Notes under the pieces: generated by a model
Seen by the model: only the letters and a program-made list of their open reading frames with translations
Databases searched by the model: none
Told to the model about the DNA's origin: nothing
Assembly: GCA_016281675.1 (NCBI GenBank)
Contig: JAEEJD010000160.1
Coordinates: forward strand, 1 to 9,380
Length of the DNA stretch: 9,380 nt
Direction: 5' to 3'
DNA from: Lachnospiraceae bacterium
GTDB lineage: Bacteria; Bacillota_A; Clostridia; Lachnospirales; Lachnospiraceae
Shown: piece by piece, positions 1 to 1,899 of the stretch
Layout of the letters: the number at the start of each line of letters is the position of its first letter
Numbering within the stretch: position 1 is the stretch's first letter
Position numbers and translations under genes: made by a program

Positions 1-582
1 TACATGCATGACAAGTACTGCTATGAGAGAGCAGAGATGGCTCTTCATGACAGAGACGTTAAGAGATATTTCGCAACAGGTATCGCAGGTCTGTCGATCG
101 TTGCCGATTCCTTCTCAGCTATGAAGTATGCAAAGGTTGAGTGCATAAGGGACGAAGACGGTATCATCACAGACTTCAAGATCACAGGTGACTTCCCTAA
201 ATACGGTAACGATGATGATCGTGTTGACGCGATCGCAAAGGAAGTTGTTCATAAGTTCATGACAGCTATCAGACGTCATCATACCTACAGGAACGGTATT
301 CCTACAACATCGATCCTTACGATCACATCAAACGTTACATACGGTAAGGCTACAGGTAACACACCTGACGGACGTCGTGCCGGACAGCCTTTCGCACCCG
401 GTGCAAACCCGATGCACGGCCGTGATACACACGGAGCAATCGCTTCACTTTCATCTGTATCAAAGCTTCCGTTCAACGATGCACAGGATGGTATCTCGAA
501 TACATTCACAATCATCCCCGGTGCTCTCGGTAAGGAAGATCAGGTATTTGCAGGTGATATAGAGTTAGATCTTAACAAATAA
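1..582 (+). CDS. pflB: Pyruvate formate-lyase large chain lacking its glycyl radical domain (5' end outside window)
   Basis: This is the C-terminal part of the catalytic chain of formate acetyltransferase, which converts pyruvate and CoA to acetyl-CoA and formate in the cytoplasm. The frame is open from base 1, so the first Met (base 4) is internal; by comparison with remembered E. coli PflB about 500 residues lie upstream, including the Cys-Cys active site. The visible 193 residues match PflB closely: [55 protein letters not shown] and [16 protein letters not shown]. The chain then ends with a short unrelated tail ([11 protein letters not shown]) at TAA 580-582, near E. coli residue 683. It thus lacks the roughly 78-residue domain with the radical glycine. 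That domain is a separate gene at 822-1064, so this chain should be inactive unless it pairs with it. Codon choice (CTT, GTT, ACA) suggests high expression. Family assignment is certain; the split is seen directly, its function is inferred. Confidence 0.95.
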
Positions 583-605
583 TATAAGAAAGAGAGGTGA
601 CATTT

Positions 606-800
606 ATGGATCAGATCGATGATCTGGTAGCGTACCTTGACGGTTCGGTCGAAGCGGGGGTCGGACATCTGAACGTAGATGTCGATGAAGCTCAGAGCCA
701 GATGCGTACGTCGGAGACGATGGGGTGTACCGATTGCTCCAGAACTCCGCTGGCATGCAGCGTTCCGACGCTTCATCAGGGCCTCGACGATTATTCTTAA
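606..800 (+). CDS. Small protein resembling the start of the PFL glycyl radical domain, without the radical glycine
   Basis: This encodes 64 residues between the PFL core gene and the stand-alone radical domain. ATG 606 is preferred over in-frame GTG 597 because GAGAGGTGA (592-600) is a well-placed ribosome binding site for 606 and contains that GTG. Residues 3-30 align without gaps to residues 7-34 of the protein at 822, with 13 of 28 identities: Q.D.LV..LDG, then GHLNV.V. After that the similarity stops. The remainder has three cysteines (GCTDC, then LAC) and no RVSGYAV loop; I read the other two frames and found no hidden radical loop. By hand count its GC is 107/195 (55%) against 107/243 (44%) for the next gene, and it uses more CTG, GTC, TCG and ACG codons, so it looks less highly expressed or differently derived. 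It could be a decaying duplicate, or a docking, regulatory or chaperone subunit that occupies the same site on the PFL core. No function is established. Confidence 0.65.
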   Translation: MDQIDDLVAYLDGSVEAGVGHLNVDVDEAQSQMRTSETMGCTDCSRTPLACSVPTLHQGLDDYS

Positions 801-821
801 ACAGAAAAGGAGGAAAGAATC

Positions 822-1064
822 ATGGCAGCTAATCAGGCACAGGTTGATAACCTTGTAAATCTTTTAGACGGATATGCAACAAAGGGTGGACATCACCTTA
901 ACGTTAACGTTCTTAACAGAGAAACTCTTCTTGATGCTCAGGCACATCCCGAGAATTATCCTCAGCTTACGATCCGTGTAAGCGGATATGCCGTAAACTT
1001 CATCAAGCTTACACCGGAGCAGCAGGCAGACGTTATCTCAAGAACATTCCACGAGTCTATCTAA
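822..1064 (+). CDS. grcA: Stand-alone glycyl radical domain of pyruvate formate-lyase (GrcA-like)
   Basis: This 80-residue protein is essentially the missing C-terminus of PFL. It contains [36 protein letters not shown], the radical loop RVSGYAV with Gly55 as the predicted radical site, and the tail [23 protein letters not shown] (807-815) lies just before ATG 822, a strong ribosome binding site, so it is translated independently. The E. coli homologue GrcA (YfiD, 127 residues) carries an extra N-terminal region and replaces the radical domain of oxygen-cleaved PFL. This one has only 7 residues before the domain (MAANQAQ) and lies beside a PFL chain that lacks its own domain, so it is probably an obligatory subunit and not a spare part. 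Gly55 would be converted to a radical by PflA at 1132-1899. The domain assignment is secure; the name grcA is given by similarity and the role as obligate subunit is inferred. Confidence 0.9.
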
Positions 1065-1077
1065 GTCGGAATTAATT

Positions 1078-1109
1078 TGCGAGCCCGAGACATTTGTTTC
1101 GGGCTCGTA
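1078..1109 (+). terminator. Intercistronic hairpin between the radical-domain gene and pflA
   Basis: CGAGCCCGAGAC (1080-1091) pairs with GTTTCGGGCTCG (1096-1107) around an ATTT loop. That gives 12 bp with one G-U pair, plus a flanking wobble and one more A-T pair outside. Only a broken T tract (ATTTT at 1114-1118) follows, so full Rho-independent termination is doubtful. A partial terminator or 3'-end stabiliser would give abundant PFL subunits and less activase, which fits the catalytic need for PflA. Confidence 0.55.
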
Positions 1110-1131: not shown

Positions 1132-1899
1132 ATGACAAAAGGCCGCATACATTCCCTTGAAAGCTTCGGCACCGTGGACGGTCCCGGGACGAGATATGTT
1201 GTCTTCGTACAGGGATGTCCCATGAGGTGTCTGTACTGTCACAACCCGGATACGTGGGCGATGACCGGCGGCGAGGAGATGGACCCCGAATACATATTCG
1301 AGCAGTATCTTCACAATGAGCCGTTTTACAAAAACGGCGGCGGACTGACCGTAACGGGAGGAGAACCGCTCATGCAGGTTGATTTTCTGATCGACCTGTT
1401 TACACTGTGCAAAGATCACGGTGTTCATACCTGCATAGATACTTCGGGCATAGCATACCGTCCGGAGAATAAGGAATTTATCGCCAAACTCGACAGGCTC
1501 ATGGAGCTGACGGATCTGGTCATGCTCGATATCAAGCATATAGATCCCGAGATGCACAAAAAGATCACCGGACAGCCAAATGACGGGATTCTCGCGTTTG
1601 CAAAGTATCTGTCGGATAAGAACGTCGATACGTGGATCAGACACGTCATAGTTCCGAATCTGACCGATGATGACAAGTATCTGTATGATCTCGGATACTT
1701 TATCGGGGGACTGAAGTCTCTGAAGGCTCTTGATGCTCTTCCTTATCACACGATGGGTAAGCCAAAGTATGAGAAGCTCGGGTTTGATTATCCTCTCGGG
1801 GATACACCTCCCATGGACAAGAAAGATCTTATCGCTAAGAAACAGGTGATCCTTGACGGTGTCAGAGCCGGAAGAGAGGCGGCAGGCAGGCCGGTATAA
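1132..1899 (+). CDS. pflA: Pyruvate formate-lyase activating enzyme (radical SAM)
   Basis: This 255-residue protein (E. coli PflA is 246) is the radical S-adenosylmethionine activase that abstracts hydrogen from the PFL glycine. The N-terminus has SFGTVDGPGTRYVVFVQGCP, and the [4Fe-4S] cysteines C29, C33 and C36 form the CxxxCxxC motif, followed by HNPDTW as in PflA. The GGEP motif for SAM binding is at residues 76-79, DIKH at 133-136 and RHVIVPN around 170-176. GGAGGAG (1121-1127) precedes ATG 1132. Its likely target is Gly55 of the protein at 822-1064, presented on the PFL core. The reducing electron must come from a ferredoxin or flavodoxin; a ferredoxin gene lies 714 bases downstream. It sits behind the hairpin at 1078-1109 and may therefore be transcribed less than the PFL subunits. 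Two bases separate its stop from maf. Confidence 0.96.
   Translation: MTKGRIHSLESFGTVDGPGTRYVVFVQGCPMRCLYCHNPDTWAMTGGEEMDPEYIFEQYLHNEPFYKNGGGLTVTGGEPLMQVDFLIDLFTLCKDHGVHTCIDTSGIAYRPENKEFIAKLDRLMELTDLVMLDIKHIDPEMHKKITGQPNDGILAFAKYLSDKNVDTWIRHVIVPNLTDDDKYLYDLGYFIGGLKSLKALDALPYHTMGKPKYEKLGFDYPLGDTPPMDKKDLIAKKQVILDGVRAGREAAGRPV

Follow-up and report, generated by a model that had tools for sequence, protein, structure and literature searches.

Split pyruvate formate-lyase in gut and rumen Lachnospiraceae, with a cysteine pair that may protect or repair its exposed active site

Pyruvate formate-lyase (PFL) is central to fermentation in anaerobes, including the Lachnospiraceae of gut and rumen, and its oxygen sensitivity is a textbook limit. 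In Escherichia coli the enzyme normally is one chain, and YfiD (GrcA), a separate glycyl-radical domain that can complete a PFL core, is a rescue protein (PMC8683613, PMC12338860; accessible parts of both papers). In vitro, E. coli PFL residues 1-695 together with YfiD residues 61-127 take up a glycyl radical, 2.7 uM versus 17.2 uM for PFL (PMC8683613, accessible part).

Ribonucleotide reductase (RNR) offers a second comparison. In these enzymes, the active-site disulfide is re-reduced by a cysteine pair that the catalytic chain carries at its end; in a split class II RNR, the small second subunit NrdJb carries the C-terminal redox cysteines (PMC4520616, accessible part). Class III RNRs, which are glycyl-radical relatives, lack the requisite cysteines (PMC4390871, accessible part).

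The locus described here opens a 9,380-nucleotide stretch of Lachnospiraceae DNA (contig JAEEJD010000160.1, assembly GCA_016281675.1), which is referred to below as the window. Its features are as follows.

1..582, + strand: PFL core, C-terminal 193 residues, with a Cys-free tail (TIGR01255 484-665; PF02901; first half of PF01228)
593..599, + strand: AGAGGTG, ribosome-binding-site-like, 5' of the mini-protein gene (read from the sequence)
606..800, + strand: unannotated 64-residue mini-protein, GrcA3-like arm plus dithiol end (relatives; PFL core adjoining in 80/80 loci)
606..695, + strand: mini-protein arm, residues 1-30, homologous to the start of GrcA3 (hhalign; NF038360 4-30)
717..773, + strand: motif TMGCTDCSRTPLACSVPTL, with Cys codons at 726, 735 (C44) and 756 (C51) (motif comparison)
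806..815, + strand: AAAGGAGGAA, ribosome-binding-site-like, 5' of the GrcA3 gene (read from the sequence)
822..1064, + strand: GrcA3, separate glycyl-radical subunit, 80 residues, ATG at 822 (NF038360 161.8 bits, cut-off 158)
975..995, + strand: RVSGYAV radical loop, intact (sequence)
1078..1109, + strand: terminator-like hairpin, 14 pairs with a T-rich tail, between the GrcA3 and pflA genes
1132..1899, + strand: PflA, radical SAM activase (TIGR02493 286.8 bits, cut-off 231.75)

The core reading frame enters the window open at its 5' edge and stops at 582, just where the preliminary description ended the PFL chain. This stop corresponds to position 665 of TIGR01255: the core covers model positions 484-665, and the 822-1064 product covers 663-744 of 744. 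Likewise, the core matches positions 1-51 of Pfam Gly_radical and the small protein positions 50-106, so the two chains together span the C-terminal part of PFL without loss. The claim that they cover all of PFL stands for that part; the stretch of PFL before it, ~500 residues, is not in the window. Core residues 1-183 (window numbering) align with E. coli PFL 499-681, which places the final core residue, 193, near E. coli residue 691, slightly later than the residue 683 first proposed. The artificial cut at residue 695 in E. coli PFL is almost the same as this natural end (PMC8683613, accessible part).

Relatives supply what the window edge removes. The window core scores 293 bits against TIGR01255, its chain being clipped by the window edge (family cut-off, 994.2). 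The relatives' cores begin at model position 1-5 wherever the contig is complete, and 36 of 50 relative genomes hold a TIGR01255 match above 994.2 bits; matches in the other genomes are fragmented. The active-site Cys-Cys pair, which lies in the region outside the window, sits within an invariant ACCVSS in 38 aligned relatives' cores.

The 822-1064 product is, as first described, the radical domain, with its own ribosome-binding-site-like sequence and an intact RVSGYAV, the radical loop of glycyl radical enzymes. It scores above the cut-off of the NCBIfam GrcA3 model (NF038360; 161.8 vs 158 bits, positions 2-78 of 78) and below that for E. coli-type GrcA (TIGR04365; 102.2 vs 170 bits). Its best 120 database relatives are all stand-alone proteins of 80-130 residues. 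Moreover, in the 50 relative genomes with the locus, the strong PFL matches listed all end at ~665 and none is full length. An assembly accident is thereby ruled out. (The terminator-like hairpin at 1078-1109 is not significant, since the scan found 1 and shuffled sequence gave an average of 1.0; it may reduce pflA expression.)

Databases already reflect the split as such, as the existence of the GrcA3 entry makes plain, and it is less novel than first claimed. The core's best solved relatives, PDB 38la and 38lb (both "Formate acetyltransferase"), seem from their sequences to be PFL chains without a radical domain: 38la ends at LGKED, and 38lb (chain 38lb_A) has no detectable radical domain and carries CDMC in its tail. 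Their depositors may describe the split or the tail already, and the GrcA3 name and the two PDB entries together indicate that others probably are at work on split PFLs. A search of the open-access literature, preprints excluded, found nothing on a naturally split PFL, GrcA3, the mini-protein or the Cys tail, which says little on novelty.

The preliminary description gave the locus as a three-gene order, and overlooked the reading frame at 606-800. Because this gene lies between those for the core and GrcA3, the locus has four genes. Its 64-residue product has 1,450 clustered relatives at E up to 1; of the 120 listed, several carry the name "hypothetical protein" of Lachnospiraceae. The product matched no Pfam family, nothing in the PDB at E up to 10, and nothing on plasmids. 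The first 30 residues are homologous to the GrcA3 arm (hhalign 95.9%, E 5e-9). The NF038360 model itself gives the mini-protein 20.9 bits over positions 4-30 only, under the cut-off, and so does not count it as a member.

A scan of named genomes confirmed 396 mini-protein relatives, and the best 80 loci were analysed. A PFL core adjoins the mini-protein in all 80. The order core, mini-protein, GrcA3 is found in 78; in the exceptions, GrcA3 precedes the mini-protein (L016) or is absent before the contig end (L050). Same-strand pflA follows downstream in 60 of these, the remainder having contig ends or a differing arrangement. Two metagenome-assembled genomes, RGIG8400 (L003/L004) and RGIG9247 (L032/L033), each hold two split-PFL loci, through recent duplication or mixed assembly.

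The segment TMGC(T/S)DCSRTPLACSVPTL is identical in the 80 loci except for one Thr/Ser, an identity that is partly selected because the loci were picked with patterns containing the motif. DNA variation within the 57-nucleotide motif is almost only synonymous: among 70 DNA versions, pairwise differences number 3,605, 1,341 and 24,819 at codon positions 1, 2 and 3, respectively. Divergent members give a fairer measure of conservation. In 26 divergent mini-proteins, C44 and C51 (window numbering) are invariant and the first Cys of the window form often is missing; residues flanking the cysteines (PTL..G.D) also are conserved. Outside this set of 26, two short mini-proteins (L117:3150-3338 and L118:3266-3505) stop right after CxxC (GCTDCAK and GCTTCSQ) and lack the second half of the motif. 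Two other proteins (L119:2412-2654 and L171:1887-2102), not beside PFL, join a GrcA-like arm to a different end, YHHGRCDVGSP(F/W)xKG...C.

An arm that resembles GrcA3 and then diverges is what would be expected if pflB were simply broken, by artefact or decay, with the middle reading frame a decayed second radical domain. That account has next to no probability, and was rejected: the frame encodes a conserved protein with synonymous variation, it recurs in 80 loci, and no intact pflB is among the matches listed for the 50 genomes.

Codon bias, compared in 48 loci, distinguishes the two small proteins. The median for GrcA3 against the core is 0.719, beside 0.708 for the core halves against each other; the medians for the mini-protein and PflA are 0.492 and 0.474 (mini-protein versus PflA, p 0.10), and the mini-protein falls below GrcA3 in 47 of 48 loci. 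These levels suggest that GrcA3 is produced on the scale of the enzyme and the mini-protein on that of an accessory factor. The core-like codon bias of GrcA3, along with the want of any full-length pflB among the matches listed for the 50 genomes, supports the proposal of the preliminary description that the two-chain form is the normal PFL of the genomes carrying this locus. GrcA3 most likely is the normal, exchangeable radical subunit; as the preliminary description proposed, it might be swapped in the cell and be cheap to make. Its name implies a spare part, whereas here no other radical domain accompanies the PFL of the operon.

The PflA-like codon bias of the mini-protein, and the presence of same-strand pflA downstream in 60 of the 80 loci, might point instead to a role in activation, the Cys-bearing end serving to recruit PflA or to guide radical transfer to GrcA3. 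(In E. coli, PFL residues 696-733 and the YfiD N-terminus matter for activation, according to the accessible part of PMC8683613.) Such a role is the least probable of the functional alternatives considered here, as full-length PFLs are served by an activase of the same kind and have no such module, and the two cysteines would be left unexplained.

A spare part in the original sense may nevertheless exist, for at least 21 of the 50 genomes carry a second GrcA3 gene unlinked to the core (2 of these with a stop within the matched stretch). A Crp-type regulator lies directly upstream, or one gene off, in 3 of the 8 flanking regions listed. At L124:3923-6800, a same-strand row consists of desulfoferrodoxin, rubrerythrin, a Crp-type regulator, DUF2161 and an unlinked GrcA3; L127 and L128 likewise have a second, unlinked GrcA3 near a Crp-type regulator. 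These surroundings are consistent with, and suggest, a spare copy for oxygen stress.

Since loci chosen by their mini-protein cannot reveal how often a split PFL goes without one, 150 genomes of the family were searched separately for PFL and for the mini-protein. Among the PFL matches listed, 20 genomes had none; 59 had a full-length chain (G135, G168 and G181 have a split PFL besides); 58 had resolved split cores; and in 14 all matches were partial or belonged to other glycyl radical enzymes. The mini-protein is present in 36 of the 58 split genomes, on the contig of the core in 35 and elsewhere in one (G052); in five of the 36 (G053, G081, G091, G110 and G165) it was assigned by profile score. 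It is present also in G072 and G177, whose cores are fragmented. No separate mini-protein was found in the 56 genomes with only full-length PFL. The association of mini-protein with split is strong (Fisher p 2.5e-15, with G072 and G177 counted as split and G179 as lacking the mini-protein).

As a control, the 56 full-length-only genomes were searched with a wider profile (A7), which matched in 20 of them at E up to 0.01. All 20 matches lie within the full-length PFL chain and cover the arm only (model 2-38), none reaching the dithiol end. The absence of a stand-alone mini-protein from these genomes is thus upheld, and the arm is seen to match the beginning of the radical domain in PFL itself.

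A linked mini-protein is missing from 22 split loci, and in 21 of these the core itself ends in a tail of 30-48 residues with at least two cysteines, for example CGNQACNIPNI (L137), CGDMACKVPTLHKGID (L143), CPDEACRIPNLMEGLD (L150) and CACCEPN (L141). The C-x4-6-C type accounts for 12 of these 21 tails; the other nine are CACC, CAC, CC or CAAC. The 22nd, G179, has neither form at the core, and the wider profile finds an unlinked, divergent mini-protein with CENSPVPMACGVPTV. A Cys pair thus accompanies the split PFL in 58 of 58 resolved split genomes: 37 as a separate mini-protein and 21 as a fused tail. Conversely, core tails that stand beside a separate mini-protein have no Cys, either in the 80 loci (L001-L080) or in 25 loci of the family sample, whose tails have 14-24 residues. 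GrcA3 has no Cys in any of 79 loci.

Beyond the family, a class-wide sample gave three split cores among the matches listed: one with a CC tail (L166), one with a separate mini-protein (L167) and one with a fused tail (L168). In a phylum-wide sample of 398 genomes, the centre genome and one other had a mini-protein match at E up to 1e-8, and so the mini-protein looks mostly confined to one family.

Are the tails and the mini-protein ends related? Eleven of the family's 21 fused tails, together with L168, P0244 and P0271, went into a profile of 14 tails (A6); L152 and the CACC, CAC, CC and CAAC tails did not. Against the ends of 26 mini-proteins this profile gives hhalign 97.1%, E 6e-11. By this sequence match, the C-x4-6-C fused tails and the mini-protein ends are one module. 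The module's two settings have been exchanged repeatedly: in a quick tree of 58 cores, 2 of them full-length outgroups, fused and separate forms are interspersed, with at least 8 changes by parsimony, 4-5 of which are forced by starred branches. Because the module shifts between chains and yet is kept in each split genome read, it is under functional constraint.

What might this function be? The module accompanies a detachable radical domain, and so may well handle the active site that detachment exposes. In the proposed scheme, the core holds the active-site Cys-Cys pair and PflA would charge GrcA3. The module is either, as in the window, a 64-residue protein with a GrcA3-type arm and a Cys end replacing the Gly loop, or, as in relatives, a Cys pair fused to the core C-terminus. 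At any time when the core lacks GrcA3, be it before assembly, in the course of charging or after cleavage by oxygen, the active-site cysteines would be open; the dithiol would then dock at or near the vacated site, and re-reduce or cap them, and fresh GrcA3 would restart the enzyme. This reading as a whole, of a natural split PFL with GrcA3 as its normal subunit and a dithiol module that re-reduces or caps the active-site cysteines, is offered at slightly under even confidence. Work by Reddy in 1998 and Zhang in 2001 reportedly linked the loss of PFL activity under oxygen to Cys419 and also to Gly734; the dithiol would then have a target for repair.

Several observations count against the dithiol. 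The Cys spacing varies, from CC, CAC, CACC and CAAC to C-x4-C through C-x7-C, nine of the 21 fused tails fall outside the C-x4-6-C type, and L117 and L118 stop right after their CxxC; this variety is also compatible with metal binding or mere capping. PFL turnover is not known to consume reducing equivalents, which makes it less evident than for RNR why a reductant should be required. Further, in G052 and G179 the mini-protein is unlinked to the core, and G056 (1.9 Mb assembly) has a mini-protein and no PFL match listed. The G056 gene, L160:8149-8388, may reflect gaps in the assembly or a role of its own; the genes around the unlinked mini-proteins of G056 and G052 were uninformative.

One alternative is a cap without chemistry: the Cys end would plug the active site while GrcA3 is away, or act as a placeholder that keeps the core folded, the cysteines mattering for fit or as oxygen scavengers. 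The arm common to the mini-protein and GrcA3, through which the two could compete for the same site, fits such a plug, as does the conservation of residues around the cysteines (PTL..G.D). However, the two cysteines are the most constant feature despite their varying spacing and setting, and, on the codon bias, the cell probably makes less mini-protein than core, which would be insufficient for a cap that stays in place. This possibility is judged unlikely.

Alternatively, the cysteines might be ligands of zinc, iron or a cluster, as in the small subunits of some other glycyl radical enzymes, and so lend stability or supply electrons. The window form has three cysteines (CxxC plus AC), and six fused tails are of the CACC type. 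Only two cysteines are kept across the divergent mini-proteins, however, several tails have just two, and their spacing is not fixed; a metal site therefore appears quite improbable.

Under the preferred reading, in which the module is a dithiol, the closest parallel is RNR. As in NrdA and in the NrdJa/NrdJb pair, a Cys pair sits either at the C-terminus of the catalytic chain or on a small subunit of its own (PMC4520616, accessible part), and the E. coli NrdA end, GCESGACKI, and the L168 PFL tail, CASGACISPTL, have a similar C-x4-C layout. Split PFLs differ from class III RNRs in that they carry a Cys pair where the latter lack the requisite cysteines (PMC4390871, accessible part). Nor is a Cys tail or mini-protein described for YfiD repair in E. 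coli, in the accessible parts of PMC8683613 and PMC12338860. The likeness to RNR is one of arrangement: searched against the PDB at E up to 10, the 14-tail profile found no RNR, and its lone match (E 0.59) was dismissed as chance.

By analogy, the module could be an RNR-like mobile C-terminal dithiol, the mini-protein having formed by the joining of a GrcA-type arm to a Cys end; exchange of GrcA3 would renew the enzyme after damage to the Gly, and the dithiol after damage to the Cys. This fuller analogy is put forward tentatively, as rather less than an even prospect. AlphaFold models of a type-F core with its Cys tail (pLDDT 54.5) and of a read-through of L019 core, mini-protein and GrcA3 (pLDDT 45.4) were too poor to interpret.

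Together, these results show that many gut and rumen Lachnospiraceae make PFL as a core plus a separate radical subunit, along with a Cys pair whose role may be to shield or mend the active site left exposed. If the radical domain is indeed swappable and a dithiol tends the cysteines, both oxygen-sensitive parts of PFL would be serviceable. Moreover, an unannotated family of small proteins gains a partner and a testable role, and a feature reminiscent of RNR is placed on the glycyl-radical side of the family.
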